The position numbers were made by a program, and so were the translations under genes. Of a stretch of DNA of 64,000 nt, positions 30,012-46,585 are shown piece after piece (the stretch's first letter is position 1; every line of letters starts with the position of its first letter). Source of the stretch: Streptomyces sp. f51 (GTDB lineage: Bacteria > Actinomycetota > Actinomycetes > Streptomycetales > Streptomycetaceae); NCBI RefSeq assembly GCF_037940415.1, contig NZ_CP149798.1, positions 1 to 64,000 on the forward strand, in the 5' to 3' direction. A model generated the notes under the pieces. That model searched no databases, was not told the DNA's origin, and saw only the letters and a program-made list of their open reading frames with translations.

Positions 30012-30446
30012 ATGCATATCTCCGCGAAGGCGGACTACGCCACGCGGGCCCTGCTGGAGCTCGCCCGCGAACCGGCCCGCCCGCTCACCTGCGAGTCCAT
30101 GGCCTCCTCACAGCACGTTCCGTTCCGGTTCCTCAAGTCCGTGGTGGGCGAGTTGCGCCGGGCAGGACTGGTACGCAGCCAGCGTGGTTGCGAGGGCGGG
30201 TACTGGCTCGGCCGGCCCGCCGACGAGATCACCCTGCTGGACGTCGTACGCGCCGTGGACGGTGAGCTGATCACCTTGCGGGGCGAGCCACTGGCCGGGC
30301 TCGACTACCCGGGGCCCGCCTCCGGACTCCCCGGGATATGGCGCCGTATCGAGGCCGACGCGGCGGCGGTGCTGGGCGGGACGACGCTCGCCGCGCTGCT
30401 GCCCGCCGGCGCGGCCGGGCGGATGGACCGGGAGGGAGCCGCGTGA
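30012..30446 (+). CDS. Rrf2-family transcriptional regulator
   Basis: The 144-residue protein starts at ATG 30012. The winged-helix domain is typical of Rrf2: AKADYATRALLELA at the start, IPxxFL-like VPFRFLKSVVGELRRAGLV, and the wing RGCEGGYWLGRPADEITLLDVVRAVDG. The Fe-S ligating cysteines of IscR/NsrR are absent; only one Cys, in the wing, is present. It may therefore be a CymR-like or thiol-type regulator rather than Fe-S-dependent. It is translationally coupled (GTGA) to the DsbA-like gene and lies about 1.2 kb upstream of the organosulfur island. Rrf2-type CymR controls cysteine metabolism in Bacillus, so a link is plausible but unproven. Confidence 0.88.
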   Translation: MHISAKADYATRALLELAREPARPLTCESMASSQHVPFRFLKSVVGELRRAGLVRSQRGCEGGYWLGRPADEITLLDVVRAVDGELITLRGEPLAGLDYPGPASGLPGIWRRIEADAAAVLGGTTLAALLPAGAAGRMDREGAA

Positions 30447-31384
30447 ACCGCGCCCCGGGCGGGACGGCGCCCGAGGCGGACGCCGGGGACATGGTGGAGG
30501 TCGTGGAGTACACCGACCCGCTGTGTCCCTGGGCCTGGGGATCGGAGCCGGTGTTCCGCGGGCTGCGCGCCGCGCTGGCCGGCCGGGTCCGCTGGCGGCG
30601 CGTGTACTGCGTCCTGTTCGAGGACGACGACGACCCGCCGCCCGACCCCGCCGCGGAGACCGCCTGGTACGCGCGGTACGTCGAGGACGTCGGCGCCCAC
30701 ACGGGGGCCCCGCGGGCGCGGCGGCTGAGCCGGGTCGCGGCGAGTTCCTGGCCCTCCTCGCTGGCGGCCAAGGCCGCGGAGCGGCAGGGCGAGGAAGTGG
30801 CCGAGCGGGTGCTGCGGCGGCTGCGGGAGAGCGTGTTCGTACGGGGTGAACCGGCGGACACGGCGGCGCTGGCACTGTCCGCGGTCCGGGGCGTGCCCGG
30901 CCTCGACCATGGGCGGCTCGCGGCCGACGCGGCGTCAACGGCCGTACGGGAAGCGGTACTCGCCGACCGGGCCGAGGCGCGCCGACCGGTCGCCGAGGTC
31001 CTGTCGGTGCGCGGCGGCTCGCCGCATCCCGGCGCCGCGAAGGAGACCGCCGAGGGCGGGCACCGCTACGCGCTGCCGACGCTCCTGGTGCGCGCTCCCG
31101 GAGGTCATCGCGTCGTCCCCGGCTGGCGGCCGTACGAGGAGTACGCGGCGGCGTTCGAGGAGTTGAGCCCCGTGCTGCCGACGAGGCCCGCGCGGCCGGC
31201 GGCGGAGGAGGCGCTCGCGCGGTACCGGAGCCTGACCGGCCCCGAGGCGGCGGTCCTGAGCGACGGTCCGTGGCCTCCCCGGGACGCCGTGCGCGTCGAG
31301 ACCGGCAACGGCCCGCTGTGGCTGCACCCGGACGAGGCCGCCGTACACCCGGCGCGCGACGGCGACGCTCCCGCGGCACCCTGA
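30443..31384 (+). CDS. DsbA/FrnE-like thioredoxin-fold protein
   Basis: A GTG at 30443 overlaps the Rrf2-type stop and gives 313 residues. The opening MVEVVEYTDPLCPWAWGSEPVFRGLR (Cys28) is the start of a DsbA-type fold. The motif is CPWA rather than CxxC, so only one active-site Cys is present. The later cis-Pro region is RYALPTLLVRAPGG. Such proteins are usually isomerase- or reductase-like thiol enzymes in the cytoplasm; no signal peptide is seen. Coupling with an Rrf2 regulator suggests a thiol-stress or electrophile role, by inference. Confidence 0.8.
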   Translation: MNRAPGGTAPEADAGDMVEVVEYTDPLCPWAWGSEPVFRGLRAALAGRVRWRRVYCVLFEDDDDPPPDPAAETAWYARYVEDVGAHTGAPRARRLSRVAASSWPSSLAAKAAERQGEEVAERVLRRLRESVFVRGEPADTAALALSAVRGVPGLDHGRLAADAASTAVREAVLADRAEARRPVAEVLSVRGGSPHPGAAKETAEGGHRYALPTLLVRAPGGHRVVPGWRPYEEYAAAFEELSPVLPTRPARPAAEEALARYRSLTGPEAAVLSDGPWPPRDAVRVETGNGPLWLHPDEAAVHPARDGDAPAAP

Positions 31385-31564: not shown

Positions 31565-31639
31565 TCGCGACCGGGTGGGGCGCATCCCCGCGTCCCCGCG
31601 GCCTTCTGATCAGCGGTCAGCACCCGTCCCGCCCAATGA

Positions 31640-31655
31640 GACACCAATTGGTGTC
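31640..31655. promoter_or_regulatory. Perfect 16-bp palindrome, candidate operator of the organosulfur operon
   Basis: GACACCAATTGGTGTC reads identically on both strands and ends two bases before a TTGACA -35 element. An AATT-centred palindrome of this length is unusual in such GC-rich DNA. A bound regulator here would either recruit or block polymerase. Confidence 0.55.
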
Positions 31656-31657
31656 CA

Positions 31658-31687
31658 TTGACAGCCGTCGAGAACCGGCCCCAGGAT
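31658..31687 (+). promoter_or_regulatory. HrdB-type promoter for the leader peptide and organosulfur operon
   Basis: TTGACA at 31658-31663 and CAGGAT at 31682-31687 are 18 bases apart. The predicted start point falls at about 31694-31695, on the ATG of the leader ORF, so the mRNA may be leaderless. Confidence 0.5.
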
Positions 31688-31694
31688 GTGCACC

Positions 31695-31769
31695 ATGCTC
31701 ACGACGCACCCCGGCGTGGTGTGCCGCTACGTGGACCTGCGGCGCACTTCCAGCGCTCTCTGTCGCTGA
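31695..31769 (+). CDS. Cys-containing leader peptide upstream of the peptide-type ABC/LLM operon
   Basis: Twenty-four codons from ATG 31695 (an in-frame ATG at 31686 would add Met-Cys-Thr) end with YVDLRRTSSALCR and stop. This is the pattern of the short 'putative leader peptides' found before sulfur-metabolism genes in Streptomyces: a variable start, then V/I-D-L-x-R-x-x-S-A-L-C. An earlier Cys (VVCR) precedes it. The likely role is ribosome stalling when Cys-tRNA is scarce, which alters expression of the operon starting at 32084. The 314-base gap to that gene leaves room for RNA structure. Three relatives occur at 45543, 49763 and 50236. Confidence 0.75.
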   Translation: MLTTHPGVVCRYVDLRRTSSALCR

Positions 31770-32083: not shown

Positions 32084-33658
32084 ATGTCCGGACGCATCAC
32101 GCCCCGCACCTCCACAGTGGCATCCCGTTCCTCCCGGCGCCCCGGTCGGCTCCGCGCGGCCGCCCTGGGAACCGCCCTCGCCTCCGTGCTCGTCCCCGCG
32201 CTGAGCGCCTGCGGCGGCGAGGCCGCGTCGGCCACCGGCTCCGCCGCGCTGAAGTGGACCTCCTCCTACTTCCCCGCCCACTGGGACCCGGTCGTCAGCG
32301 GCAGCGGCGCCCAGTTCCGTGAACTCGCCCTGGTATACGTCTCGTTGACGCGGACGGACGAGCACGGCAAGGCGGTCCCGGACCTCGCGAAGAGCTGGGA
32401 CTACAACGCGGCAGGCGATGTCATCACCTTCCATCTGCGCCCGCACCTCACGTTCAGCGACGGCACACCGGTCGACGCCGCCGCCGTCAAGGCAGCCATC
32501 GAGCGGGCCAAGAAGCAGAAGAACTCCGCCCTGTTCGGCGATCTGACCTCCATCAAGTCGGTGGACGCCCAGGGTCTCGACACCGTGATCCACCTGAGCC
32601 AGGTCGACTACCAGATCCCCCAACTGCTGGGCGAGCGCGTCCTCCAGATCGCCAGCCCCAAGGCCGCGGCGTCGCCCGAGAAGCTGGACCAGAGCCCGGT
32701 CGGCGCGGGCCCGTTCGTCGTCACCCAACTCGTCCCGGGCACCAAGGCGGTGCTGAAGAAGAACCCGGACTACTGGGACGCCAAGAACATCCACATCGAC
32801 CGTGTCGAGCTGAGCTCCGCCCCGGACGCCTCCACCGTCGTCTCCGGACTCCAGACCGGCGTCTACAACTTCGCCGACATCGCGCCCAGTCAGGCCGACG
32901 CGGCCAAGAAGGCCGGACTCGACGTCTTCGTGCAGCCCGGCTTCAACGCCTCCAACCTCAGCCTCAACACCAACAAGGCGCCGTTCGACAACGACAAGGT
33001 CGTCGACGCGGTCCGCTACGCGGTGAACCGTCAGGAGTTCGTCGACAAGCTGACGTTCGGCTACGGCTCGGCGACCGACCAGCCGTTCCCCAAGGGCTAC
33101 GTCGCCTACGACCCGCAGTCCGAGAACGCGTACCCCTACGACCCCGCGAAGGCCAAGAAGCTGCTGAGCGAGGCCGGTTACAAGGCGGGCGCCCTCAAGC
33201 TCAACCTGGTCATCCCGGCCGAGGACCCCCAGGCCGAGATCGTGCAGGCGCAGTTGGCGAAGGTCGGCGTCAAGGTCACGATCAAGATAGACAAGAACTG
33301 GGCCACCCCGTTCTTCGCCAAGGACCTGACGTTCTCGCTGTACGGCACCACCGGGCGTGACTCCGCGGCGCAGACCCTGACCGCGCACTTCGGCCCCAAC
33401 GGTCCGCTCAACCTCAGCTCCCCCTACGAGCCGTCCGGCTTCGAGGCGGCCATCGCCAAGGTGCGCAGGACCCCGCTGGACTCGCCGGACTACGCGAAGG
33501 TCCTCCAGGCGGCGACCCGGGCCGGCCTCAAGAGCAAGGCGCTGGTCTTCACGTACTCCTCGCCCAACCTCATCGCCAAGAGCAAGTCCATCTCCGCCCT
33601 GCCGAAGAACCCGGCCCACATCGACTGGACCGGCGTCACCATCGCCGGCGGCAACTGA
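32084..33658 (+). CDS. Peptide-type ABC transporter substrate-binding lipoprotein
   Basis: The 524-residue protein has a long Arg-rich signal with lipobox LSAC (Cys43) and a family-5 solute-binding fold (SWDYNAAGDVITFHLRPHLTFSDGTPVDAAAVKAAIE; NPDYWDAKNIHIDRVEL; FVDKLTFGYGSATDQPFPKG). Family-5 proteins bind peptides, nickel chelates and other small organics. Associated LLM monooxygenases and an FMN reductase point to a sulfur-containing organic ligand. The set resembles the Klebsiella KPN_01854-01858-type loci recognised in protein-family databases, as far as I recall them. The start ATG 32084 is chosen because the upstream in-frame ATG 31958 adds a non-signal-like Arg/Pro stretch. Confidence 0.88.
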   Translation: MSGRITPRTSTVASRSSRRPGRLRAAALGTALASVLVPALSACGGEAASATGSAALKWTSSYFPAHWDPVVSGSGAQFRELALVYVSLTRTDEHGKAVPDLAKSWDYNAAGDVITFHLRPHLTFSDGTPVDAAAVKAAIERAKKQKNSALFGDLTSIKSVDAQGLDTVIHLSQVDYQIPQLLGERVLQIASPKAAASPEKLDQSPVGAGPFVVTQLVPGTKAVLKKNPDYWDAKNIHIDRVELSSAPDASTVVSGLQTGVYNFADIAPSQADAAKKAGLDVFVQPGFNASNLSLNTNKAPFDNDKVVDAVRYAVNRQEFVDKLTFGYGSATDQPFPKGYVAYDPQSENAYPYDPAKAKKLLSEAGYKAGALKLNLVIPAEDPQAEIVQAQLAKVGVKVTIKIDKNWATPFFAKDLTFSLYGTTGRDSAAQTLTAHFGPNGPLNLSSPYEPSGFEAAIAKVRRTPLDSPDYAKVLQAATRAGLKSKALVFTYSSPNLIAKSKSISALPKNPAHIDWTGVTIAGGN

Positions 33659-33690
33659 CCACCCGCCCACGACAGTTAAGGGGGCAACCC

Positions 33691-34719
33691 ATGACGACGA
33701 CGGAGGCACTGGCCCCGTCCGGTGTCCGTCTCCCGGGCGCCGCGGTCAGGACCGGGCACACCCTGGGCCGTGTTCTGGCCGTCCTCGCCCGCTCGGCCGC
33801 GATCTTCGTGCCCGTGTTCGTGGTCGCGACGTTCGTGACCTTCGCCCTGCGGTCGCTGAGCGGGCTGAGCCCGGCGCGCATCCAGCTGGGCGAGGAGGCG
33901 ACTCCCGCCGCGGTCGCCCGTGTCGAGGCCCACTGGGGCCTCGACCGGCCCTTCCTCGTCCAGTACGGGGACTGGTTCGGGGGCGTCCTGCACGGACGGC
34001 TCGGCACGAGCTGGACCAACGGCGCCGACATCTCCACCCTCATCGGCCTCGGCCTGGGCGTGAGCCTGTCGGTGGCGACGTTCGCTCTGATCATCGGTGT
34101 CGTCGCGGGGTTCGGCCTCGGCACGATCGCGGCGGTGCGCCGCACCACCTGGATCGACCGGGCGATCACGGGCTTCGTCACGCTGATCTCGGTGATGCCG
34201 GCGTTCGTCGTCGGTATCGTGCTCGTCGCGGTCCTCTCGGTGGGACTGCATCTGTTCCCCTCCGCCGGATACGTTCCGGCGGAGGAGGGGTTCGGGCCGT
34301 GGCTCGCCCACATCACCCTGCCCGCCGTCGCGCTGAGCTTCGACGTGGTCGCCGACGTGGCCCGCCAGCTGCGCGGCAGCCTCGTGGGGGCCTACCGCGA
34401 GAACTACGTGACCGGCGCGGTCGTCCGGGGCCTGAGCCCGCGCCGGATCTTCTTCGGCCATGTCCTGCGCAACGGCCTCGGACCCGCGCTCGCCACCCTC
34501 GGACTGAAGTTCCCGGCCCTCGTCGGCGCCTCCGTCGTCACGGAGTGGATCTTCGGGCTCCAGGGGTTCGGGCGGTTCGCCAACGACTCCGCGCAGGCCG
34601 GCGACGTCCCCGCGGTGCAGGGCGTCCTCGTGGTGTCGATCGTCCTGGTCGTCGCCTTCAACCTGCTCGTCAATCTGGTGCTGGCGCGCGTCACACCGGC
34701 CGCCCGGCGGGGGGTGTGA
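33691..34719 (+). CDS. Peptide-type ABC transporter permease (DppB-like)
   Basis: The 342-residue protein has six membrane spans. The DppB-family periplasmic loop follows TM1 (ARVEAHWGLDRPFLVQYGDWFGGVLHGRLGTSW), and the EAA coupling loop YRENYVTGAVVRGLSPRRIFFGHVLRNGLGPAL lies in the C-terminal half. It lies 32 bases after the binding-protein gene, preceded by AAGGGGG. It pairs with the DppC-like permease that begins two to three bases after its stop or overlaps it. Confidence 0.92.
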   Translation: MTTTEALAPSGVRLPGAAVRTGHTLGRVLAVLARSAAIFVPVFVVATFVTFALRSLSGLSPARIQLGEEATPAAVARVEAHWGLDRPFLVQYGDWFGGVLHGRLGTSWTNGADISTLIGLGLGVSLSVATFALIIGVVAGFGLGTIAAVRRTTWIDRAITGFVTLISVMPAFVVGIVLVAVLSVGLHLFPSAGYVPAEEGFGPWLAHITLPAVALSFDVVADVARQLRGSLVGAYRENYVTGAVVRGLSPRRIFFGHVLRNGLGPALATLGLKFPALVGASVVTEWIFGLQGFGRFANDSAQAGDVPAVQGVLVVSIVLVVAFNLLVNLVLARVTPAARRGV

Positions 34720-34721
34720 CC

Positions 34722-35612
34722 ATGGTGCGCCGCGTTCTCACCCTCACCTCGGCCCGCATCGCCCTGGCCGTCCTCGTCGCGATCGCCGTGCTCGCCCTGT
34801 TCGGGCCGCTCCTCGCTCCGCAGGACCCCCTGGCCACCAGCGACCACACGCTCGCCGCCGCCTCCGGTGCCCACTGGCTGGGGACGGACTACCTCGGCCG
34901 CGACGTGCTGAGCAGGCTCCTGGCCGGCTCCCGCGTCAGCGTGCTGGGCTCGCTGGAGGTCGCGTTCACGGCCCTGGCCATCGGTGCCGTCCCCGGCATC
35001 CTGTCGGTCCACCTCGGCCGGGTCTTCGAATGGGTCACGCTCCGGCTCGCCGACACGTTGGTCGCCCTGCCGTTCCTGCTCTTCGCCGTCGCCGTCGTCG
35101 CGCTGCTCGGCAACGGCCTCACCCAGGCGATGCTCGTCACGGGCGCCCTGGTGTCCCCGCTGTTCTACCGCGTGGCCCGCGCCGCCACCCTGGCCGTCGC
35201 CCGCTCGCCGTACGTGGAGGCCGCGATCGTCTCCGGCGCCTCGACCGGCTGGATCGTACGCCGCCACGTGTGGGCCAAGGTGCTCCCGCCGATCGCGGTG
35301 GCGCTGGCCCAGACCGTCGGCGTCGGCTTCGTCATCGTGTCGAGCCTGACCTTCCTCGGCATCGGGGTGCAGCCTCCCGCGCCCACCTGGGGCGGTCTGC
35401 TCGCGTCCGACCTGGGCTATCTCAGCCACCAGCCGTGGGCACCGCTCGCCCCCGCCCTCCTGATCATGGTCACCGTCTGGGCCTGCAACCTCCTCGCCGA
35501 CGCCGTCCGAGACGTCTCCGGCGAGGCGGGCCGCACCTCGGCCGGCCGCGCCAGGAACCGACCCGACCGCCGCTCCCAGGCCGGTCCCGCTCCCGCCGGA
35601 GGTGCGCGATGA
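34722..35612 (+). CDS. Peptide-type ABC transporter permease (DppC-like)
   Basis: The 296-residue protein starts at ATG 34722; GTG 34716, overlapping the previous stop as GTGA, is an equally plausible start adding two residues. Family markers are the N-terminal LLAPQDPLATSDHTLAAASGAHWLGTDYLGRDVLSRLLAGSRVS and the coupling loop YVEAAIVSGASTGWIVRRHVWAKVLPPI. A Ser/Arg-rich cytoplasmic tail of about 30 residues follows the last span. It overlaps the next ATPase gene by ATGA. Confidence 0.92.
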   Translation: MVRRVLTLTSARIALAVLVAIAVLALFGPLLAPQDPLATSDHTLAAASGAHWLGTDYLGRDVLSRLLAGSRVSVLGSLEVAFTALAIGAVPGILSVHLGRVFEWVTLRLADTLVALPFLLFAVAVVALLGNGLTQAMLVTGALVSPLFYRVARAATLAVARSPYVEAAIVSGASTGWIVRRHVWAKVLPPIAVALAQTVGVGFVIVSSLTFLGIGVQPPAPTWGGLLASDLGYLSHQPWAPLAPALLIMVTVWACNLLADAVRDVSGEAGRTSAGRARNRPDRRSQAGPAPAGGAR

Positions 35613-36520
35613 CGACCCTGTCCGGGAAACTCCTCACCGAGACCGTGACGGGCGAAGAAGCCCCGGAGACCACCGGGTCCGCTCCCACGGCACCGCCCGA
35701 ACCGCCGTCCCCCGTGCTGGCCGTACGTGATGTGCGGATCGGGGAGGGGGACGGCGGCCGGGAGATCGTCCACGGCGTCAGCTTCACGCTCACGCCCGGC
35801 AGCGCCGTCGGCATCGTCGGCGAGTCCGGCAGCGGGAAGACCCTCACCTGCCGTGCCGCGCTCGGAATCCTGCCCGCGCCCTTCGAGGTCACCGGGGGCT
35901 CGGTGGAGATCGACGGCCACGACATCGCCGGGCTGTCCCCGGCGCGGTGGACGGATCTGCGCGGTGCCACGATCAGCGCCGTCTTCCAGGACCCGGCCTC
36001 CTATCTCAACCCCTCGATCCGCGTGGGGGCGCAGATCGCCGAGGTCCTCCGGGTCAAGACCGGCCTGAAGCGGCGCGCCGCACGGCGCCGGACGACCGAA
36101 CTGCTGCGGTCGGTCCATCTCCGTGACCCGGAGCTCGTCGCCTCGCAGTACCCCCACGAGCTGTCCGGCGGCATGCTCCAGCGGGTCCTCATCGCCGTGG
36201 CCATCGCCGCGGGTCCGCGCATCCTCATCGCCGACGAGGCCACCACCGCGCTCGACGTCACCGTCCAGGCCGAGATCCTCGACCTGCTGGCCGACCTTCG
36301 CGAGCGGACCGGACTCGCCCTGGTGGTGGTCTCCCACGACCTGGCCGTGGTCGCCCAGCTGTGCGACGAGGTCCTCGTCATGCGCCACGGCGAGGTGGTC
36401 GAACAGGGCCCGGCCGAGGACGTGCTCCGCCGGCCGCGGCACGCGTACACGCGGCTGCTGATCGCCGAGCACGAGCAGTACGGCCTGGAGAAGTTCCTCG
36501 CACCCGAGGGGGAGTCATGA
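35609..36520 (+). CDS. Peptide-type ABC transporter ATPase (DppD-like)
   Basis: The 303-residue protein has Walker A GESGSGKT (residue ~74), Q-loop AVFQDPASYLNPSIRVG, signature LSGGMLQRV, Walker B ILIADEATTALDV and the switch His in VVSHDLAVV. The usual C-terminal oligopeptide-type extension (HAYTRLLIAEHEQYGLEKF) is short. It pairs with the next ATPase, and its stop overlaps that gene's start by ATGA. Confidence 0.93.
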   Translation: MTTLSGKLLTETVTGEEAPETTGSAPTAPPEPPSPVLAVRDVRIGEGDGGREIVHGVSFTLTPGSAVGIVGESGSGKTLTCRAALGILPAPFEVTGGSVEIDGHDIAGLSPARWTDLRGATISAVFQDPASYLNPSIRVGAQIAEVLRVKTGLKRRAARRRTTELLRSVHLRDPELVASQYPHELSGGMLQRVLIAVAIAAGPRILIADEATTALDVTVQAEILDLLADLRERTGLALVVVSHDLAVVAQLCDEVLVMRHGEVVEQGPAEDVLRRPRHAYTRLLIAEHEQYGLEKFLAPEGES

Positions 36521-37470
36521 CCACGGACACCGTGAAGTCCGCCCCGGACCCGGGAGCCGTTGCGGTCCCGGGAGCCGCCCCGGACCCGGGAGCCGCTCCG
36601 GCAGCGGGGTCCGCCCCTGCCACCGGATCAACCCGGGCCGGAGAGCCGAAGCGTCCCGTCCTGGAGATCAGGGACCTCGCCGTCCGTTACGGACCGCGCC
36701 GACGCCACCGGCACGCGCTGCACGGCGTCGCGTTGAATGTCGCGCCGGGCGAGACCGTCGGGATCATCGGCGAGACGGGTTCGGGCAAGTCCACCCTGGC
36801 CCGGGCGGTGCTCGGTCTGGTGCGGCCCTCGGCGGGCTCCGTGGTCGTCGACGGCGAGGACGTCACCGCGTACGGCCGCAGGCAGTGGCGTGCGCTGCGC
36901 CGGCGGGGCCTGGTCCAGTACGTCTTCCAGGACCCCCTGCGCAGTCTCGACCCCGACCTCACCGTCGAGGCCTCACTGAGCGAACCCCTGCTTGTCCAGG
37001 GCGTGTCCCGCGCCGAGACGGCACACCGGGTCCGCGCCTTCCTGGCCCGCGTCCACCTCTCCGAGGACCTGCTCGCCCGGCTGCCCGGTGAACTCTCCGG
37101 CGGACAGCGCCAACGCGTCGCCGTGGCACGGGCGTTGGTCACCGAACCCCGGCTGGTCATCCTCGACGAACCGGTCAGCGCCCTGGACTCCGCCAACCGC
37201 GTCCAGATCCTGCGCATCCTGGAGGAACTCCGCGACGACGGGGTGGCCCTCGTCTTCATCTCCCACGACCTCGGCTCCGTCGCGGGGATCGCCGACCGCA
37301 TCGCCGTGCTCTACCGCGGCGAACTGGTCGAGACCGGCGCCGCCCGCGATGTCATCGGCCGCCCCCAGCACCCGTACACGCGCCTGCTCGTCCGTTCCGC
37401 GCCCACCCTGAGCTCCGCCCCGGCCGACCGGGCCGAACGCGCGGCCCTGCGCGCCCTGCTGAACGTCTGA
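36517..37470 (+). CDS. Peptide-type ABC transporter ATPase (DppF-like)
   Basis: The 317-residue protein has Walker A GETGSGKST, Q-loop YVFQDPLRSLDPDL, signature LSGGQRQRV, Walker B LVILDEPVSALD and FISHDLGSV. The first ~45 residues are an unusual Ala/Gly/Pro-rich leader with the repeated element PGAAPDPGA, absent from typical DppF proteins. It completes a five-component importer with the four genes upstream. The LLM gene begins 25 bases later behind AGGAAGAA. Confidence 0.92.
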   Translation: MTTDTVKSAPDPGAVAVPGAAPDPGAAPAAGSAPATGSTRAGEPKRPVLEIRDLAVRYGPRRRHRHALHGVALNVAPGETVGIIGETGSGKSTLARAVLGLVRPSAGSVVVDGEDVTAYGRRQWRALRRRGLVQYVFQDPLRSLDPDLTVEASLSEPLLVQGVSRAETAHRVRAFLARVHLSEDLLARLPGELSGGQRQRVAVARALVTEPRLVILDEPVSALDSANRVQILRILEELRDDGVALVFISHDLGSVAGIADRIAVLYRGELVETGAARDVIGRPQHPYTRLLVRSAPTLSSAPADRAERAALRALLNV

Positions 37471-37495
37471 AGCCCTCGAAGACAGGAAGAACACC

Positions 37496-38836
37496 ATGCC
37501 CCGCACCATCCATCTCGCCCTGCACCCCTACGGCGTCGGCGGTCCCGGCCAGCACGGTCTGTGGAAGGACCCGCGCGTCGCGAAGAACGCGAGCATCGAC
37601 ATCGACTACTACATCCGGCTGGCGAAGGCGGCCGAACACGCCCTGTTCGACGCCCTGTTCATCGTCGACAGCCAGTTCATCAACGCCACCTACCCGGCGC
37701 ACTACCTCAACCGCCTCGAACCGCTCACCCTGTTGTCCGCGGTCGCCACCCACACCCGGCACATCGGCCTGGTGGGAACCGCCAGTTCGACCTACAACTC
37801 GCCGTTCAACCTGGCCCGGCGCTTCGCCTCGCTGGACCACATCAGCGGCGGCCGGGCCGGCTGGAACGTCGTCACCAGTTTCGACACCGGCACGTCCAAG
37901 AACTTCGGACTCGACGAACACCTGGACTACACCTCCAGGTACGGCCGCGCGCTGGAGTTCGTGCGGGTGGCCCGCGGTCTGTGGGACTCCTACGAGGACG
38001 ACGCGTTCCCCGCCGACGTGGCCCGGGACGTCTTCCTCGACCCGGCCAAGCTGCACGCGCTCGACCACGAGGGCGAGCACTTCAAGGTGGCAGGACCGCT
38101 GAACCTCTCCCGCTCCCCGCAGGGCCAGCCCGTGATCTTCCAGGCCGGGGTCTCCGAGGAGGGACGCGATCTCGCGGCGCAGGTCGCCGAGGGCATCTAC
38201 GCGCCCGGCGGCACGCTCCAGCAGGCCCAGGAGTACTACGCCGACATCAAGAAGCGCACGGCCTCCTACGGACGCGACCCCGACCACATCAAGATCTTCA
38301 TCCACGGGAGCCCGGTGGTCGCCGCCACCGACGAGGCGGCCCGGCGCCGCGAACGCGAGATCTTCGAGGAGGACAACGACTTCGGCCGCAACCTCGCCCT
38401 GCTCGGACGCTCCTTCGGCGCCTACGACTTCAGCGCGCACGACCTGGACGCGCCCTTCCCCGATGTCGCGCACCTCGCGGAGAAGGGCGGCCGCACCGGC
38501 GCGGCGGCCCTGATCGAGCGGGCCCGCACGGAGAACCTGACGCTGCGCCAAGTCGCCGAGTCCGTCAACCAGTTCCGCGGATCACCCTTCGTCGGCGCCC
38601 CCGGGACCGTCGCCGACACCATCGAGAAGTGGTTCGACGCCGGCACCTTCGACGGCATCAACCTCGCCTTCCGCACCGAGGACGAACTGGACCTCTTCGT
38701 CGACGGGGTCGTGCCGATCCTCCAGAAGCGCGGGCTCTTCCGTACCGAGTACGCGGCCGACACGCTGCGCGGCAACCTCGGCCTGCCCGTCCCGGCCAAC
38801 CGGCACACCCGCGAACCGCAGCTCGCGAACGACTGA
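37496..38836 (+). CDS. LLM-class flavin-dependent monooxygenase, NtaA/SnaA/DszA family
   Basis: The 446-residue TIM-barrel protein carries the family pattern. Key segments are IHLALHPYGVGG at the start, HIGLVGTASSTYNSPFNLARRFASLDHISGGRAGWNVVTS, and HFKVAGPLNLSRSPQGQPVIFQAGVSEEGRDLAAQ. These two-component enzymes use free FMNH2 and O2 to oxidise organosulfur or amine compounds; relatives cleave C-S or C-N bonds (DszA, DmoA, NtaA). FMNH2 would come from the SsuE-like reductase at 40924. The substrate is unknown. Confidence 0.9.
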   Translation: MPRTIHLALHPYGVGGPGQHGLWKDPRVAKNASIDIDYYIRLAKAAEHALFDALFIVDSQFINATYPAHYLNRLEPLTLLSAVATHTRHIGLVGTASSTYNSPFNLARRFASLDHISGGRAGWNVVTSFDTGTSKNFGLDEHLDYTSRYGRALEFVRVARGLWDSYEDDAFPADVARDVFLDPAKLHALDHEGEHFKVAGPLNLSRSPQGQPVIFQAGVSEEGRDLAAQVAEGIYAPGGTLQQAQEYYADIKKRTASYGRDPDHIKIFIHGSPVVAATDEAARRREREIFEEDNDFGRNLALLGRSFGAYDFSAHDLDAPFPDVAHLAEKGGRTGAAALIERARTENLTLRQVAESVNQFRGSPFVGAPGTVADTIEKWFDAGTFDGINLAFRTEDELDLFVDGVVPILQKRGLFRTEYAADTLRGNLGLPVPANRHTREPQLAND

Positions 38837-38961
38837 GATCCCGCCGCGGCCGGCCGGTGGAGGCGGACCGGCACCGGCCGCGACCGGCGGCGGCCTCACC
38901 CGAGCGCCGTCCGGCACGGCCGCCCCGACGAGACGACCCGCCACCGAAAGGCCGACATCCC

Positions 38962-40011
38962 ATGACGAGCGAGCGACCACGCTTCCGGCTCGGCTTCCTC
39001 ACCCACGTCCAGGGACGCGATCAGGACATCGCCCGCACCTACCGCAACGCGCAGGAGCTGTTCGCCGTGGCGGACGAGCTCGGCTTCGACGTCGGCTGGG
39101 TGGCCCAGCACCACGTCGCCCACGGCGGTGGCGGACTGTCCTCGCCCTGGACCTTCCTCGCCCACGCGGCCGCACGGACCAGCCGCATCCGCCTGGGCAC
39201 GGCCGTCACCGTCCTCCCGCTCGAGGACCCGATCCGCCTCGCCGAGGACATCGCCACCGTCGACGCCCTGAGCGGCGGTCGCGTCGAGATCGGTGTGGGC
39301 AGCGGATCGAGCGCCCAGGAGTACGCCGCGTTCGGCCGGGACGCCGACCGCAAACGCGAACTGACCAGCGAGAACCTCGACCTCCTGCGACGGGCCCTGG
39401 CCCACGAGGAGGTGGGGACGCCCGGCTTCCGCGTCCAGCCCCGCCCCGGCGACTTCGGCCGCCGCGTCTGGCAGGGCGTGTTCAGCGCGCAGGGGGCCGA
39501 GTACGCGGCGCGCCGCGGTTCGAACCTGCTGCTCAACCGGGCGGCCTACGGATTCGACTCCCCCACCGACGAGGTGCAGCGGCCCTGGGCCGACGCCTTC
39601 CTCGCCGCCTGGGACCGGCCGCACCGCCCGCGCGTCGGCCTGTCCCGCTTCGTCTTCCCGGCCAAGGACCGGCGCACCGCGCTCCGCGCGATCGGCGACG
39701 ACGTGCACCGGGCGGCGCTGCGCATGGCGGAGAGCGGCGCGTTCCCCAAGGGCCTCGACCGGGACGAGGCGCTGCGACGCTTCCACTCCTTCCACGGCCA
39801 TCCCGAGGAGATCGTCGAAGCTCTGGGCCGCGAGCAGGTCCTGCCCGTCGCGACGGACCTGATCGCCCAGTTCAACCCCGCCGTCCCCGACCACGACGCC
39901 GCCGTCCGCGCCCTCGAACTCATCGCGACCGAGGTGGCGCCCGCGCTGGGCTGGAAGCCCGCGCACCGGGGCGGGCCCGCACCCGTCGAACCCGTACCAG
40001 CAGGAGCCTGA
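38962..40011 (+). CDS. LLM-class luciferase-like FMN monooxygenase
   Basis: ATG 38962 opens a 349-residue bacterial-luciferase-like protein. Its features are a conserved N-terminal strand FRLGFLTHVQG, then LGFDVGWVAQHHVAHGGGGLSSPWTFLAHAAARTSRIRLG and ALSGGRVEIGVGSGSS. The last two are the flavin-phosphate side of the barrel. It is distinct from the upstream NtaA-type enzyme and resembles LLM proteins that travel with peptide-type ABC importers. The two may act in sequence on one substrate. A 125-base gap precedes it, and the hydrolase follows after one base. Confidence 0.85.
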   Translation: MTSERPRFRLGFLTHVQGRDQDIARTYRNAQELFAVADELGFDVGWVAQHHVAHGGGGLSSPWTFLAHAAARTSRIRLGTAVTVLPLEDPIRLAEDIATVDALSGGRVEIGVGSGSSAQEYAAFGRDADRKRELTSENLDLLRRALAHEEVGTPGFRVQPRPGDFGRRVWQGVFSAQGAEYAARRGSNLLLNRAAYGFDSPTDEVQRPWADAFLAAWDRPHRPRVGLSRFVFPAKDRRTALRAIGDDVHRAALRMAESGAFPKGLDRDEALRRFHSFHGHPEEIVEALGREQVLPVATDLIAQFNPAVPDHDAAVRALELIATEVAPALGWKPAHRGGPAPVEPVPAGA

Positions 40012-40012
40012 G

Positions 40013-40789
40013 ATGCCCACGTACACCGACCACCACGGGCCCGAAGGGCTCCTCGTCCGCGGCACGATCCTCGTGGTCCCCGGCCGCGGCGAGACCCGGG
40101 CGACCTACGCGCGCCTCGGTGCGCGGCTCGCCGCCGACGCCTACCGGGTCCGGGTTATCGACCCCCCGGCCCTCGACGCCGACGACCCTGCCGGGTCCCT
40201 GACCGAGCTGGAGGCCCGGCTCGCCCGGGCCGTCGAGGACACCGCCTCGCAGGACGGTGTCGTACGGCCGGTCGTCCTCGTCGGCGCCGACTCGGGGGCC
40301 GTGGCGCTCGCCGCGCTCCTCGGCGGGTCCCGCACCCCGGCCGCCTGGTGGCCGAACGCCGTGGTCCTCGCCGGCCTTCCCGGTCCGTCCGCGAAGACCG
40401 GCGCCGTCGGCGCCACGTGGGACGCCGAGCTCGACGTCCGCACCGCGTGCCCCACGCATCGGGGCCGCCTCACCGAGGACCCCGAGGTGCGGCGCGGGTC
40501 GCTCGACGCCGCTCTGCCGGACGTGCTGCTCTCGGCGGCGTACGACAGCGAGTCACCGCTGCCCACCCTGCTGCTCGTGGGCGACTCCGATCCGCTCGCC
40601 GACGACGAGGCACTCGCCCGCCTCGCCAAGTCCCTTCCCCTGGCCCGCCTTTCGGTCGTCCACGGAGCTCACCACGACGTCCTCAACGACCTCCAGCACC
40701 GTTCGGTGGCGGCCGAGGTCGTCGGCTTCCTGGAAGCACTGCGGGGTGACCTGCGGCCGCTGATCAGTGTGCGGTCCAGCGCCTGGTGA
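40013..40789 (+). CDS. Alpha/beta hydrolase
   Basis: The 258-residue protein has an alpha/beta-hydrolase layout. The nucleophile elbow is GADSGA (Ser94), the acid is probably Asp191 or Asp193 in LLVGDSDPLADD, and a catalytic His (220 or 221) lies in VVHGAHHDVLND. The early VVPGRGETRATYARLG supplies the oxyanion loop. In this operon it could cleave an ester or thioester, or the acyl group of an oxidised organosulfur intermediate, but nothing in the sequence fixes the substrate. It begins one base after the LLM stop, so the two are coupled. Confidence 0.85.
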   Translation: MPTYTDHHGPEGLLVRGTILVVPGRGETRATYARLGARLAADAYRVRVIDPPALDADDPAGSLTELEARLARAVEDTASQDGVVRPVVLVGADSGAVALAALLGGSRTPAAWWPNAVVLAGLPGPSAKTGAVGATWDAELDVRTACPTHRGRLTEDPEVRRGSLDAALPDVLLSAAYDSESPLPTLLLVGDSDPLADDEALARLAKSLPLARLSVVHGAHHDVLNDLQHRSVAAEVVGFLEALRGDLRPLISVRSSAW

Positions 40790-40923
40790 GAGCCCGTCGG
40801 GCGGGCCGGCGTACACCGGCCGGCCCGGCCGACGCGAAGGCTCCCCCGACGCGCAGGCCCGGCCGACCGGCCGGCGCACGCACCCGCTTTCACCCAACCG
40901 AATCCCGACCCGGAAGGTCCGCC

Positions 40924-41481
40924 ATGGCCACCATCGTGTCCGTCTCCGGAAGCCCCTCCCCCACCTCCCGCACCACACGGCTCCTGCGCCACCTCGACGA
41001 CCGGCTGCGCCGCCAGGGCCACGAGGTCGTCCCCCTGGAAGTGCGTACGCTGCCCGCCCACGCGCTGCTCGGAGCCGACTTCCGGCATCCGGCGATCGTC
41101 GAGTCGGCGGCCCTGTTCGAGCGGGCCGACGGCGTGGTGATCGGAACACCGGTCTACAAGGCCGCCTACTCCGGCCTGCTGAAGTCGTTCCTCGATCTGC
41201 TCCCGCAGTACGCGCTGGCCGGCAAGACGGTGCTGCCCCTCGCCACGGGCGGCAGCACGGCCCATGTCCTCGCCATCGACTACGCGCTGCGTCCGGTGCT
41301 CACGTCCATGGGCGCGTCGCACATCGTGCCCGGCTGGTTCACCCTCGACAAGGACATCACCGCCGACGAGGACGGCACAGCCGTGATCGCACCCGCCGCG
41401 GCCCAGGCCCTGGAGCAGGTGACGGACCACTTCTCCGTCGCTCTTGGCGGCCGCGCGACGGCACTCGCGTCGACCGGCTGA
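40924..41481 (+). CDS. ssuE: NADPH-dependent FMN reductase, SsuE type
   Basis: The 185-residue flavodoxin-fold enzyme matches SsuE closely. It begins IVSVSGSPSPTSRTTRLLRHL and has GTPVYKAAYSGLLKSFLDLLPQYALAGKTVLPLATGG followed by AIDYALRPVL. The inserted Tyr of the KAAYSG segment, which forms the pi-helix in SsuE, is present. It makes FMNH2 for the monooxygenases of this island. A 134-base gap with a GC-rich hairpin separates it from the hydrolase, so it may also have its own promoter. The operon ends at the terminator 55 bases later. Confidence 0.93.
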   Translation: MATIVSVSGSPSPTSRTTRLLRHLDDRLRRQGHEVVPLEVRTLPAHALLGADFRHPAIVESAALFERADGVVIGTPVYKAAYSGLLKSFLDLLPQYALAGKTVLPLATGGSTAHVLAIDYALRPVLTSMGASHIVPGWFTLDKDITADEDGTAVIAPAAAQALEQVTDHFSVALGGRATALASTG

Positions 41482-41623: not shown

Positions 41624-42751
41624 TCACCGCTTGCGCCACTCCTCGGCCAGCAGTTCGTACGACCGCACCCGGTCCGCGTGTCCGTGGGTGATCGTGGTGA
41701 TGAGCAACTCGTCCGCTCCGGTGGCCTCTTGAAGCTGTTCCAGTTGGTCGGCCACCCGCCGGGGCGAGCCGACGAACTGCGTGTCGAGGCGGTCCTGGAC
41801 GAGGGCCAGGTCCGCGTCCGACCAGACGTGGGCGCGCGCCTCGTCCGGGGTCGGGAACTCGATGGCCCCCTCGGCCGTACGGATGCTGCGCACCCAGGGG
41901 CCGTATCCCGTGGCGAGTTCACGGGCCCGCTCGTCGTCCTCGGCGACCACGACGTCCGCGGACACGCTGACGTACGGCTTGTCGAGGACGTCGGAGGGCT
42001 GGAACGCGGCGCGGTAACCGTCGACCGCCTCCAGGACGGTGGCCGGGCTGACGTGGTAGTTCGCCGCGAACCGGAGTCCGCCCCGGCCCGCGACCTCGGC
42101 GCTCTGCCCGCCGCTGCTGCCGAGGATCCACAGCTCCAGGTCGGCGCCCTCGCCCGGCACGGCGCGCGCCTCGACGCCGTCGGACGAACGGTAGGTGCCC
42201 GCGAGCAGCGCGAGGATGTCGTCGATCTGCTCGCCGTAGTCCTGCGACTCGGCGTTGGGCTGCTGGAGGAGCGTGCGCTGAAGGGCGATCCTCGGTGAGC
42301 CGAGGAGGTGCTCGAAGGAGAACCGGGGCGGTATGAGGAGCCCGTTCGGGGCGCGGCCGTCGGTCACGGGTGTCGCGGTCACCGGTGCCGTGGCGGGCTT
42401 GCCGGACGGCCGGCCGCCCGAGCGTCCGAGGCCCAGGTCGAGGCGGCCGGGGTGCAGCGCGTCGATCAGGCCGAACTCCTCGACCGTGGACAGGGCGGTG
42501 CGGTGGCCGAGTTGTACGGCACCGGCGCCGAGCCGGATGGTCGAGGTCGCGGAGGCGGTCAGGGCGATGACGACCGCGGGCGAGGTTCCGGCCACGCCGG
42601 GGTTGAGATGGTGCTCCGCGAACCAGTAGCGGGCGTAGCCGAGGCTCTCGGCCCGGCGGGCCAGGTCGATGGAGTTGCGCAGCGCGTCTGCGGCCGTGGA
42701 ACCCGAGGAGACCGGAACCAGGTCGAGTACGCCGAGAGGGATGTCGGACAT
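41624..42751 (-). CDS. LLM-class flavin-dependent oxidoreductase, MsnO8/CmoO-like
   Basis: The 375-residue luciferase-fold protein begins PLGVLDLVPVSSGSTAADALRNSIDLARRAESLGYARYWFAEHH, the signature of the MsnO8-type branch. It continues with IRLGAGAVQLGHRTALSTVEEFGLIDALHPGRLDLGLGRSGG. An insertion of about 40 Pro/Thr/Gly residues follows. Bacillus YtmO/CmoO in the S-alkylcysteine salvage operon belongs to this branch. It is last in the leftward series of three LLM genes, 97 bases after the NtaA-type gene. Confidence 0.85.
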   Translation of the reverse strand: MSDIPLGVLDLVPVSSGSTAADALRNSIDLARRAESLGYARYWFAEHHLNPGVAGTSPAVVIALTASATSTIRLGAGAVQLGHRTALSTVEEFGLIDALHPGRLDLGLGRSGGRPSGKPATAPVTATPVTDGRAPNGLLIPPRFSFEHLLGSPRIALQRTLLQQPNAESQDYGEQIDDILALLAGTYRSSDGVEARAVPGEGADLELWILGSSGGQSAEVAGRGGLRFAANYHVSPATVLEAVDGYRAAFQPSDVLDKPYVSVSADVVVAEDDERARELATGYGPWVRSIRTAEGAIEFPTPDEARAHVWSDADLALVQDRLDTQFVGSPRRVADQLEQLQEATGADELLITTITHGHADRVRSYELLAEEWRKR

Positions 42752-42848
42752 GTGCTGGGGCCTCCTCAGCGGTCGACGGACGGGGGTGCGGTGGTGGACG
42801 GCGGGCCGGGAGCGCGGTGGCGCGGTACCCGGTCAGGGGCCTGGAGCC

Positions 42849-44243
42849 TCATGACGCCACCCGGCCGGGGTGCGCCTCGGTGTCGGTGTGCGCCCCGGCG
42901 TCGGGGTGGGCGAGGCCGAGGTGGTCGCGCAGGGTGGTGCCCTCGTACTCGGTGCGGTAGACACCGCGTTCCTGGAGGAGCGGGACGACGGTGTCCGCGA
43001 AGGAGTCGAGGCCGCCCGGGGTGATGTGCGGGACGAGGATGAACCCGTCGGAGGCGTCGGCCTGGACGAACTCGTCGATGGTCCGGGCGACCGTCGCGGG
43101 GCTGCCCACGAAGGCCTGCCGGCTCCCCGTCTCGATGACGAGGTCGCGGATGGACCAGTTGTTGGCGGCGGCCCGCTCCCGCCACTCGCGGGCGGTGGCC
43201 AGCGGGTCGCGGTACATCCGGACCTGGGCACGGCCCCGGGCGACGGTGTGTTCACCGAGGTCCGGGTCGATGTCGGGCAGCGGCCCGTCCGGGTCGTACG
43301 CGGACAGGTCGCGGTTCCAGACGAACTCCAGGTGCTTGATGGCGGTCGCGCCGCTGACCTGCCGGCGCCGCACCTCCCGGGCGTGCTCCTCGGCCTCGGC
43401 GTCGGTGTCCCCGAGGACGAAGGTCGCGGCGGGCAGGATGAGCAACTGGTCGGGGCGGCGGCCGTAGCGGGCGAGGCGGGCCTTGACGTCCGTGTAGAAG
43501 GCCTGGCCCTCCTTGAGCGTGGAGTACCGGCTGAAGATCGCGTCGGCGCTCGACGCGGCGAACTCGCGGCCCTCTTCCGAGTCACCGGCCTGGAAGATCA
43601 CCGGGCGGCCCTGCGGGGAGCGCGGAACGTTGAACTGGCCCTCGATGTCGAAGTGCCGGCCCTCGTGGACGAAGGCACCGGCCTTGGCGTCGTTCAGGAA
43701 CGTTCCCGTCTCCTGGTCAGCGACGATCTCGTCCCCGCGCCAGGAGTCGAAGAGCTCGTTGGCCGTGCTCAGGAACTCCTTGGCCCGGGAGTAGCGCTCC
43801 TCCTGCGGCAGGAAGCCGCCGCGGCGGAAGTTCTCGCCGGTGAAGGCGTCCCAGGAGGTGACGACGTTCCAGGCGGCGCGCCCCGCGGAGAGGTGGTCGA
43901 GACTGGCGAACTGGCGGGCCACCTCGTAGGGCTCGTTGAAGGTGGAGTTGATGGTGCCGGTCAGACCGAGGTGTTCGGTGACGGCGGCGAGCGCGGCGAG
44001 GACGGTGAAGGTGTCGGGCCGTCCCACGACGTCCAAGTCGTAGATCTTTCCGCCCTGTTCGCGAAGTCGCAGGCCCTCGGCGAGGAACAGGAAGTCGAAC
44101 CTGGCGCGCTCGGCAGTCCGCGCGAAGTGGGCGAACGAGCTGAACTCGATGTGGCTGCCGGCCTCGGGGTCGCTCCACACGGTGGTGTTGTTGACACCGG
44201 GGAAGTGCGCCGCGAGGTGGATCTGCTTGAGCGGCTTGCTCAT
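42849..44243 (-). CDS. LLM-class flavin-dependent monooxygenase, NtaA/DszA/CmoJ-like
   Basis: The 464-residue protein belongs to the same family as the gene at 37496 but is clearly divergent. It reads IHLAAHFPGVNNTTVWSDPEAGSHIEFSSFAHFARTAERARFDFLFLAEG, then LGLTGTINSTFNEPYEVARQFASLDHLSAGRAAWNVVTSWDAFTGENF. Bacillus YtnJ/CmoJ, the C-S-bond-cleaving monooxygenase of S-alkylcysteine salvage, is in this family. FMNH2 could come from the convergent ssuE. It starts 18 bases downstream of the preceding LLM gene. Confidence 0.9.
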   Translation of the reverse strand: MSKPLKQIHLAAHFPGVNNTTVWSDPEAGSHIEFSSFAHFARTAERARFDFLFLAEGLRLREQGGKIYDLDVVGRPDTFTVLAALAAVTEHLGLTGTINSTFNEPYEVARQFASLDHLSAGRAAWNVVTSWDAFTGENFRRGGFLPQEERYSRAKEFLSTANELFDSWRGDEIVADQETGTFLNDAKAGAFVHEGRHFDIEGQFNVPRSPQGRPVIFQAGDSEEGREFAASSADAIFSRYSTLKEGQAFYTDVKARLARYGRRPDQLLILPAATFVLGDTDAEAEEHAREVRRRQVSGATAIKHLEFVWNRDLSAYDPDGPLPDIDPDLGEHTVARGRAQVRMYRDPLATAREWRERAAANNWSIRDLVIETGSRQAFVGSPATVARTIDEFVQADASDGFILVPHITPGGLDSFADTVVPLLQERGVYRTEYEGTTLRDHLGLAHPDAGAHTDTEAHPGRVAS

Positions 44244-44261
44244 GGTCGGGGTCCTTCCGGC

Positions 44262-45470
44262 TCAGGCGGTCGTGGCGTAGCGGTTGGCGGGGCGGGCGAG
44301 CCCGAGCAGTCCGCGCAGGGTGTCGGCCTCGTAGGCCCGCCGGAACGCGTTCCGGCGCTGGAGTTCGGGCACCAGGCCACGGGTGATCGCGGGCAGGTCG
44401 TGCCCGGCCACGGCGGGCCGCAGCCGGAAGCCGGACAGCCCTGCCTCGCCCAGCTCCTGGAGCAGGTCGGCGAGTTCGGCGGGCGTTCCGGTGAAGATCC
44501 GGGCGTCGCTCGTGTACGGCCGGCCCGCGAGGACGTCCAGTCGCTCGCGTCGGGCCCGGGCGGCTCCGGGGTCGTCGTCCAGGAAGACGACGAGGTCGCC
44601 GAAGACGTGTACGGTCTCGTCCCCTCGACCGGCCGCCCGCTGCTCCGCGCGGATCTCCTCGACGACGGAACGGGCCTGGCCGGCGTCGTGCGGGGTGACG
44701 TAGCCGACGTCGGCGGCCCGGGCCAGCAGCCGGTACGGGACGGTGGCGTGGGCCAGGGCGCTGACGATCGGCTGCCCCTGCGGCGGCCGGGGCGTGATCG
44801 AGGGGCCCTTGACGCGGAAGTTCCTGCCCTCGAAGTCGATGTAGTGGACCCTGTCGCGGTCGATGAACCGGCCGGTGGCCTCGTCGCGGATCTCCGCGTC
44901 GTCCTCCCAGCTGTCCCAGAGTCTGCGGACGACCTCGACGTAGTCGGCGGCCTCGTCGAAGAGTTCGGTCACCAGTTCCTGGGCGGCGGGCGTGTCGTAG
45001 TCCTCGATCCGCAGGGGCGGGAAGGTGCGCCGTCCGAAGTGCGCGGCCTCGTTCTGGCGTGCGCTGACCTGCACGCGCAGGCCGGCGCGGCCGGAGCTCA
45101 CGTAGTCGAGGGTGGCGATCGCCTTGGACAGGTGGAACGGCTCGGTGTGGGTGGTCACGACCGTGGGCACCACGCCGATGTGGCGGGTCACCGGCGCGAC
45201 GCGCGACGCGATGAGGACGGCGTCGAGGCGGCCGCGGACCTGGTCGGTGCGGCCGTCGGGTCCGGTGAACGAGGAGGACTGGAGGCCGAGTCCGTCCTCG
45301 ATGGTCACGAAGTCGAGCAGACCGCGCTCGGCCTCGGTGACGAGGCCGGTCCAGTAGGCGGCGGTCAGCAGGTCGTGGGGGCGGGCCACAGGCTCGCGCC
45401 AGGCGGCCGGATGCCAGCCGGCGCCGTCCAGGGCGACGGCGAGGTGCAGCGGAGAGGGTGACGAGGACAC
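44262..45470 (-). CDS. LLM-class flavin-dependent oxidoreductase, third of the leftward set
   Basis: The 402-residue protein has an LLM barrel: LHLAVALDGAGWHPAAWR, RGLLDFVTIEDGLGLQSSSF, ARVAPVTRHIGVVPTVVTTHTEPFHLSKAIATLDYVSSGRAGLRVQVS. It keeps the family's C-terminal ending on FRRAYEADTLRGLLGLARPANRY, also seen in the two NtaA-type proteins here (EYAADTLRGNLGL, EYEGTTLRDHLGL). That suggests the three arose by duplication. It is first in its unit, 72 bases after the leader ORF at 45543. The substrate is unknown. Confidence 0.88.
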   Translation of the reverse strand: MSSSPSPLHLAVALDGAGWHPAAWREPVARPHDLLTAAYWTGLVTEAERGLLDFVTIEDGLGLQSSSFTGPDGRTDQVRGRLDAVLIASRVAPVTRHIGVVPTVVTTHTEPFHLSKAIATLDYVSSGRAGLRVQVSARQNEAAHFGRRTFPPLRIEDYDTPAAQELVTELFDEAADYVEVVRRLWDSWEDDAEIRDEATGRFIDRDRVHYIDFEGRNFRVKGPSITPRPPQGQPIVSALAHATVPYRLLARAADVGYVTPHDAGQARSVVEEIRAEQRAAGRGDETVHVFGDLVVFLDDDPGAARARRERLDVLAGRPYTSDARIFTGTPAELADLLQELGEAGLSGFRLRPAVAGHDLPAITRGLVPELQRRNAFRRAYEADTLRGLLGLARPANRYATTA

Positions 45471-45542
45471 GGAAGTGCCTTCCTGATCGACCGTACGGGG
45501 AAGCCCGCCCCGGTGTGCGGGGCGCGGCTGCGTGGGAACAGG

Positions 45543-45656
45543 TCAGGGGCGACAGAGGGCGCTGGCGAACCGCAGCAGATCGATGTGCGGCCGGCCGTAC
45601 AGGTGCGGAAGGCGGGGCGGGAACGGGCTCGGCGCACGGTGGGACACGTACCGCAT
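45543..45656 (-). CDS. Cys-containing leader peptide upstream of the three LLM genes
   Basis: Thirty-seven codons from ATG 45656 end with PHIDLLRFASALCRP. The first ~22 residues are Pro/Arg/His-rich and variable, while the end matches the leader motif V/I-D-L-x-R-x-x-S-A-L-C. It lies 72 bases before the first LLM gene, with a GC-rich hairpin (GCCCCG...CGGGGC) between. Because the GNAT gene is upstream on the same strand, this leader marks a second promoter or an internal control point. Confidence 0.75.
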   Translation of the reverse strand: MRYVSHRAPSPFPPRLPHLYGRPHIDLLRFASALCRP

Positions 45657-45766
45657 GTGTCTCGCCTCCGCCCTCTCGGCCCCGTGTTCCCGGGGTCCCG
45701 CTCGGCCCGGCACCGGTCGGCGTCCGACGGGGCGCCACACAGTCCTGAACCATCGCAACCGCACGG

Positions 45767-46540: not shown

Positions 46541-46585
46541 GGCGGTGCGGGTTCTCCGTATCTGGAACGCGGCCGGACGCGCCCC

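Follow-up and report, generated by a model that had tools for sequence, protein, structure and literature searches.

A candidate cysteine-repressed operon for organosulfur scavenging in Streptomyces and other actinomycetes

The first 64,000 bases of the 8.09-Mb contig NZ_CP149798.1 of Streptomyces sp. f51 (the whole stretch analysed here, below called the window) contain a nine-gene operon that joins a family-5 ABC importer to two luciferase-like monooxygenases (LLM1 and LLM2), an alpha/beta hydrolase and an SsuE-type reductase for flavin mononucleotide (FMN). We propose, with a probability of about 0.7, that this operon encodes a cysteine-repressed pathway for the scavenging of organic sulfur compounds. 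A function in sulfur acquisition, as suggested in an earlier note on this DNA, is strongly supported because cysteine-containing leader peptides (Cys leaders) precede the operon and its relatives, the relatives are linked to the methionine genes metY and metX, SsuE scores above its curated cut-off, a separate Cys leader precedes the neighbouring operon, which encodes a cystine-type importer, and a SAM-IV (S-adenosylmethionine) riboswitch lies nearby. Sulfur scavenging is very likely the role of the operon, and the upstream sequence signals strongly support its control by sulfur. As the window covers bases 1-64000 of the contig, the operon lies close to one end of the chromosome in this assembly.

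Leader peptides, operator and methionine genes

The leader peptide upstream of the gene for the solute-binding protein (SBP) was compared in the window and 25 Streptomyces/Kitasatospora-type relatives. Cys10 and Cys23 are invariant (26/26), position 19 holds Cys in 16 sequences and Ser in the other 10, and other variation falls chiefly in third codon positions. An in-frame ATG at 31686, a possible alternative start, is lost in some relatives. The sequence TTGACA, followed 18 bases on by CAGGAT, would put the transcription start at or near the leader ATG, so that the peptide is probably translated from a leaderless start; a generic sigma-70 scan gave no score for this promoter.

From public genomes, a scan yielded 80 loci, mostly actinobacterial, which we compared by gene calling and protein clustering. 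In these loci (~3.0 Mb, both strands) we searched for short intergenic open reading frames (ORFs) encoding R-x-V/L/W-D-x-x-R plus Cys, leaving out matches inside called genes and using a motif picked after the first leaders had been seen. Of the 39 matches, 25 lie before the SBP gene, nine before the first LLM gene in other lineages and five in the region preceding metY, with none elsewhere. The nine other-lineage leaders are of the CRRWLDxARCG type (e.g., LLTCRRWLDNARCGTAIC), and the R-Y/W-V/L-D-x-x-R core is conserved at the amino-acid level. A third leader type, MTVLVTRRHVDYVRVTSTGCSAVS, occurs upstream of metY in loci L029, L032, L033, L037 and L077. Genome-wide, the DNA pattern of the leader gave three matches versus five for a reversed control, i.e., chance level; two of the three are the two leaders of the window.

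An earlier study predicted candidate Cys leaders in front of cys operons of actinobacteria (Seliverstov 2005, PMC1262725), and leaderless ORFs that respond to cysteine are reported for mycobacteria (Canestrari 2020, as cited in PMC13236596 and PMC9094748). Like the mycobacterial examples, the window leader is a short ORF upstream of sulfur genes with Cys codons near its stop and a likely leaderless start. In contrast to them, its type carries two to four dispersed Cys codons instead of a run, and it precedes an organosulfur importer operon.

The operator overlapping the -35 element is a palindrome, AATGAGACACC-AATT-GGTGTCCATTG, with arms conserved and four variable central bases in 25 relatives. 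Even with up to three mismatches allowed, the 8.15-Mb genome holds no second match to it, and its half-site GGTGTCCATTG is found again in the intergenic region between the Rrf2 and cupin genes. Upstream lies the gene of an Rrf2-family regulator, which is linked to the operon in relatives as well. Among solved structures, this protein is closest to 4cic (BadM/Rrf2 family) and to the CymR proteins from B. subtilis and S. aureus; its only conserved cysteines among 17 orthologues are Cys27 and Cys60, and the three-Cys Fe-S triad is absent. The Rrf2 protein may bind the palindromic operator.

Linkage to methionine synthesis was found in relatives: metY (O-acetylhomoserine sulfhydrylase) is present in 10 loci and metX in eight, mostly directly downstream of the SsuE gene, and the tested representatives score above the curated cut-offs (metY 830.5 bits versus 703; metX 523.3 versus 475). 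In a Subtercola locus metY adjoins the hydrolase gene, and in a Galbitalea locus it lies directly upstream of the SBP gene. Among seven genus genomes searched for metY, four carry one copy and three none; in two genomes (G183 and G068) the sole metY adjoins the operon.

Several observations weigh against a cysteine-repressed sulfur pathway. The window copy lacks adjacent metYX genes, and those of the same genome adjoin a different LLM locus at 7.45 Mb. The leader's sole NCBIfam match is NF042934 (“putative leader peptide”; 22.1 bits, E 8.7e-5), below the cut-off of 27. No intrinsic terminator, which a classical attenuator would have, was found in the leader. Pairing of the leader with the start of the SBP gene is not conserved either, in a weak test in which several start codons were misplaced; the single-sequence fold is stable (z -3.54). 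Moreover, the closest solved relative of LLM2, the TIGR04027-family enzyme 8K74 from Klebsiella, is reported to use NADPH for the oxidation of poly(acrylic acid), a compound other than a sulfur compound (PMC11354265), a report which does not exclude another natural substrate of 8K74.

This activity would also fit an operon that takes up and oxidises an aminopolycarboxylate, a metal chelate or a carbon polymer, as would the membership of LLM1 in the NtaA/DmoA family, which is nitrilotriacetate/EDTA monooxygenase-like, and the resemblance of the SBP and ATPases to NikA/CntA/AgaA types. Against such a function stand the Cys leaders in several lineages, the metYX linkage, SsuE and the neighbouring sulfur loci, and we consider it very improbable. 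The nitrilotriacetate/EDTA and carbon-source readings were rejected as main explanation on the Cys leaders and metYX.

Operon layout and conservation

The nine consecutive genes delimited in the earlier note are all encoded on the + strand, are collinear and match the families assigned to them (Pfam, NCBIfam; Table 1), but the unit begins earlier, with the operator, promoter and leader peptide (31635-31769) and the Rrf2 and DsbA-like genes upstream. A divergent cupin gene precedes the latter two. Four of the five starts said to overlap or almost touch the previous stop do so: permease B/permease C (2 nt), permease C/ATPase D (-4), ATPase D/ATPase F (-4) and LLM2/hydrolase (1 nt). The fifth would require a weak GTG at 40786 as start of SsuE, whereas homology favours the ATG at 40924. 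The two LLMs, previously called unrelated, both belong to PF00296 and instead represent different subfamilies (NtaA/DmoA, TIGR03860, versus TIGR04027-like).

Table 1. Features of the operon and its surroundings in the window.
Feature	Position	Strand	Basis or remark
Rrf2-family regulator, CymR-like	30012-30446	+	Pfam Rrf2, 71 bits; without Fe-S cysteine cluster
DsbA/thioredoxin-like protein	30443-31384	+	Pfam Thioredoxin_5, sub-threshold DSBA; between Rrf2 and SBP in Streptomyces-type loci
Palindromic operator AATGAGACACCAATTGGTGTCCATTG	31635-31660		Overlaps -35 TTGACA
Leader peptide MLTTHPGVVCRYVDLRRTSSALCR	31695-31769	+	ORF between DsbA and SBP, conserved in 25 relatives
Family-5 solute-binding lipoprotein (SBP)	32084-33658	+	PF00496, 248.8 bits
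Opp/Dpp-type permease B	33691-34719	+	PF00528, 103.4 bits
Opp/Dpp-type permease C	34722-35612	+	PF00528 and OppC_N
Importer ATPase D	35609-36520	+	ABC_tran; best NCBIfam CntD/CntF/NikD, each under cut-off
Importer ATPase F	36517-37470	+	ABC_tran and oligo_HPY
LLM1, NtaA/DmoA-family FMN monooxygenase	37496-38836	+	TIGR03860; closest solved relative CmoJ/YtnJ
LLM2, TIGR04027-like luciferase-family monooxygenase	38962-40011	+	TIGR04027 under cut-off; closest solved relative 8K74
Alpha/beta hydrolase, Asp at nucleophile elbow (D93, D193, H221)	40013-40789	+	Homologue alignment, structure model
SsuE-type NADPH:FMN reductase	40924-41481	+	TIGR03567
Convergent operon (companion, outside the nine-gene unit)	41624-49594	-	Cystine-type importer, GNAT, three LLMs
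Second Cys leader peptide ...VLCADRSVDLLRVNSALCTGMCRPISQG	49763-49909	-	Before convergent operon; conserved in genome G024 (L119)
SAM-IV riboswitch	50055-50199	+	Directly upstream of GST-C-domain gene, about 50282/50552-51205

Orthologues of LLM2 are found in 11 of 199 sampled genus genomes (~5%; E <=1e-40) and in 16 of 395 sampled class genomes (E <=1e-100). The order of the operon genes is repeated across dozens of actinomycete genomes: SBP-B-C-D-F-LLM1-LLM2-hydrolase is fixed, with some losses, in loci of Streptomyces, Kitasatospora, Nocardioides, Jatrophihabitans, Amycolatopsis, Actinokineospora, Frankia, Hamadaea and Actinoplanes. Its recurrence in other Streptomyces, Nocardioides, Amycolatopsis, Actinokineospora, Frankia and Actinoplanes indicates that the arrangement exceeds chance. 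Streptomyces-type loci carry the cupin, Rrf2 and DsbA-like genes upstream and the SsuE gene downstream. In other lineages the first gene is often another NtaA-family LLM, some loci have a divergent LysR gene, and a Flavin_Reduct-type reductase (cluster c15) lies near the module in several loci.

On a 678-kb linear Streptomyces plasmid (L122, NZ_CP109366.1) the nine-gene operon and the convergent LLM operon are adjacent to each other and to metY and metX. The presence of the whole sulfur island on a plasmid suggests mobility, which possibly explains the patchy distribution.

Enzymes, importer and candidate substrates

LLM1 is a clear member of the NtaA/DmoA family (TIGR03860; 496.8 bits, curated cut-off 279.7). 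It is identical to B. subtilis YtnJ/MoxC, which we take to be the same protein as CmoJ, in 188 of 425 aligned columns (44%, 383 bits). CmoJ cleaves the C-S bond of N-acetyl-S-alkylcysteine sulfoxides (PMC10863075), and by its family LLM1 may cleave a C-S bond as well. The best family for LLM2 is TIGR04027 (KPN_01858 family), at 273.9 bits under the cut-off of 412.9. SsuE reaches 223.2 bits in TIGR03567 (cut-off 164.05).

In the hydrolase, the residue at the nucleophile position, D93, is Asp in all 33 homologues. The structure model (mean confidence, pLDDT, 91.7) places it between strand 87-92 and helix 94-105, i.e., at the nucleophile elbow in a G-x-D-x-G motif. D193 (33/33) and H221 (32/33) would complete a candidate triad. 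In fold the protein is most similar to Ser monoacylglycerol lipases, at 16-19% identity, and no close epoxide-hydrolase or dehalogenase structure is among the top matches. The conserved Asp indicates that the protein is not a serine esterase; a Ser esterase, lipase or peptidase was rejected, the neighbouring residue 94 being Ser in only 15 of 33 homologues (Thr in 12; Leu, Ala, Gln or Val in six). Despite the lipase-like fold, its chemistry should be of the Asp type known from epoxide hydrolases and haloalkane dehalogenases. This weakens the hydrolase as an argument for a larger substrate, for which it had been invoked, since the enzyme does not have to act on esters or peptides.

The SBP model (pLDDT 81.7) has as nearest folds binders of glutathione disulfide (GbpA, the best match), dipeptides (DppA) and opines (AgaA) as well as AapF, whereas by profile the protein is nearest AgaA and AapF. 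Since these matches are too diverse, a choice of ligand from the fold was dropped. A substrate exceeding an amino acid in size, as proposed, is plausible but not proven: among the closest solved relatives of the SBP are binders of dipeptides, glutathione disulfide (GbpA), an opine (AgaA) and a small signalling molecule (AapF).

Taken as parts of one pathway for organic sulfur, these components could act as follows. At low cysteine or sulfur, the Rrf2 repressor would come off the palindromic operator, while the cysteine leader would permit expression of the operon. The family-5 importer would take up an organic sulfur compound and SsuE would supply FMNH2 to both LLMs. One of these, probably LLM2, would oxidise the compound, upon which LLM1, a CmoJ/DszA/NtaA-type enzyme, would oxidatively cut the C-S bond. 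The Asp-nucleophile hydrolase may handle an activated intermediate or trim the substrate. The sulfite, sulfide or thiol set free would enter cysteine and methionine synthesis, in many relatives via the adjacent MetY and MetX.

The candidate substrates are S-alkylcysteine or peptide thioethers versus aromatic thioethers or sulfonates. An aromatic hydroxylase dependent on flavin adenine dinucleotide (FAD; FAD_binding_3/Rng_hyd_C) is encoded in 28 related loci, mostly between LLM1 and LLM2. This optional gene suggests an aromatic moiety in at least some substrates, and an aromatic thioether or sulfonate is therefore a likely substrate type. The imported compound could be a sulfonate ester or an aryl sulfonate or thioether that loses its sulfur in the manner of DszA/SeuABC/SsuD-type systems, while the hydroxylase would attack the ring; the LLM1 family includes DszA-type enzymes and SsuE is part of the unit. 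However, the hydroxylase is absent from the window operon and many relatives, the unit holds no desulfinase (DszB) or SsuD/TauD gene, and to our knowledge family-5 SBPs are not usual sulfonate binders. We see this route as possible, if on the unlikely side.

A specific form of sulfur scavenging would be the salvage of S-alkylcysteines or mercapturates (mycothiol S-conjugates). N-acetyl-S-alkylcysteine or S-alkyl peptides would enter via the peptide-type transporter, LLM2 would sulfoxidise them and LLM1 would carry out a CmoJ-type C-S cleavage. LLM1 is indeed closer to CmoJ than the NtaA LLM of the convergent operon is (383 versus 310 bits), and the best fold match of the SBP binds glutathione disulfide. 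Moreover, the two LLMs and FMN reductase parallel the two flavin monooxygenases CmoO and CmoJ and the flavin reductase of B. subtilis (PMC10863075). In contrast to that system, the operon has another importer type and another second LLM, which is not of the MsnO8 type, and a hydrolase replaces the acetyltransferase and deacetylase. Pfam and NCBIfam detect no N-acetyltransferase or deacetylase, including the M20 type, among the nine genes. A GNAT gene lies in the convergent operon, which with its cystine-type importer, MsnO8 and NtaA LLMs is the better fit; for the nine-gene operon we consider this salvage rather doubtful.

Within the preferred reading of organosulfur scavenging, we tentatively put forward, at less than even odds, a widespread new actinobacterial desulfurisation pathway for bulky, possibly aromatic organosulfur compounds. 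It would employ two LLMs with an Asp-nucleophile hydrolase and a peptide-type importer under the joint control of a CymR-like repressor and a Cys leader.

Neighbouring sulfur loci and known systems

The convergent operon encodes an MsnO8 LLM, two NtaA-type LLMs, a GNAT protein and a cystine-type SBP, ATPase and permease, a set resembling the genes for S-alkylcysteine salvage; its leader is of the same Cys type as that of the nine-gene operon. The pairing of the SAM-IV riboswitch with a GST-like gene is conserved in genome G024 (L119), and a GST-C-domain gene is an unexpected type of target for a SAM riboswitch. The metYX genes of the same genome belong to a second sulfur locus (L113, G000:C1:7441000-7460900) with an LLM2 paralogue, a DUF1684-like protein, another LLM, metX and metY, as well as a divergent Ssu-type importer with another NtaA LLM. 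A DUF1684-family cluster (c30) also lies near LLM2-type genes in L079, L089, L091 and L093; together with the similar protein at L113, this hints at a sulfur-linked role for DUF1684.

In the alkanesulfonate system SsuEADCB, an ABC importer and an LLM monooxygenase accompany the SsuE reductase. The operon shares these three components, but it lacks an SsuD equivalog and its importer is of another family. In the proteome of Rhodococcus IGTS8, levels of MetY, of a CymR/Rrf2 regulator and of NtaA-type LLMs are raised during biodesulfurisation (PMC8557817). The convergent operon and the sulfur-limitation proteins of IGTS8 represent LLM-rich sulfur acquisition as in the nine-gene operon, with cystine- or taurine-type importers in contrast to family 5 here.

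The proteobacterial TIGR04027/TIGR04028 locus (KPN_01854-KPN_01858 type) likewise groups a TIGR04027 LLM with a family-5 SBP, two permeases and an ATPase in a single stretch of genes. In contrast to the two ATPases here, its ATPase is one long protein, and a set of NtaA LLM, Asp-hydrolase and SsuE is not annotated there. A locus of this type on Allorhizobium ampelinum pAtS4e (L120) adjoins a taurine-type importer and acyl-CoA-dehydrogenase-family genes and encodes two CMD/alkylhydroperoxidase proteins, of which there are none among the nine genes. The operon SBP scores 74.7 bits against TIGR04028, far below the cut-off of 468.5. With the caveat of this related, hypothetical and catalogued locus, literature searches, whose coverage leaves out most subscription papers, agree with the statement of the earlier note that no characterised pathway has exactly this set: the parts of the operon belong to known families, and we found no description of the actinobacterial set itself.

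Soil sulfur is largely organic, and which organic sulfur compounds actinomycetes use is poorly known. An operon in which an importer of its own serves a pair of flavin monooxygenases and an unusual hydrolase is conserved across several actinomycete families, which suggests a sulfur source that has so far gone unrecognised. The binding protein offers a direct route to its ligand, and the leader peptide can serve as a sequence tag in searches for further sulfur-starvation operons.

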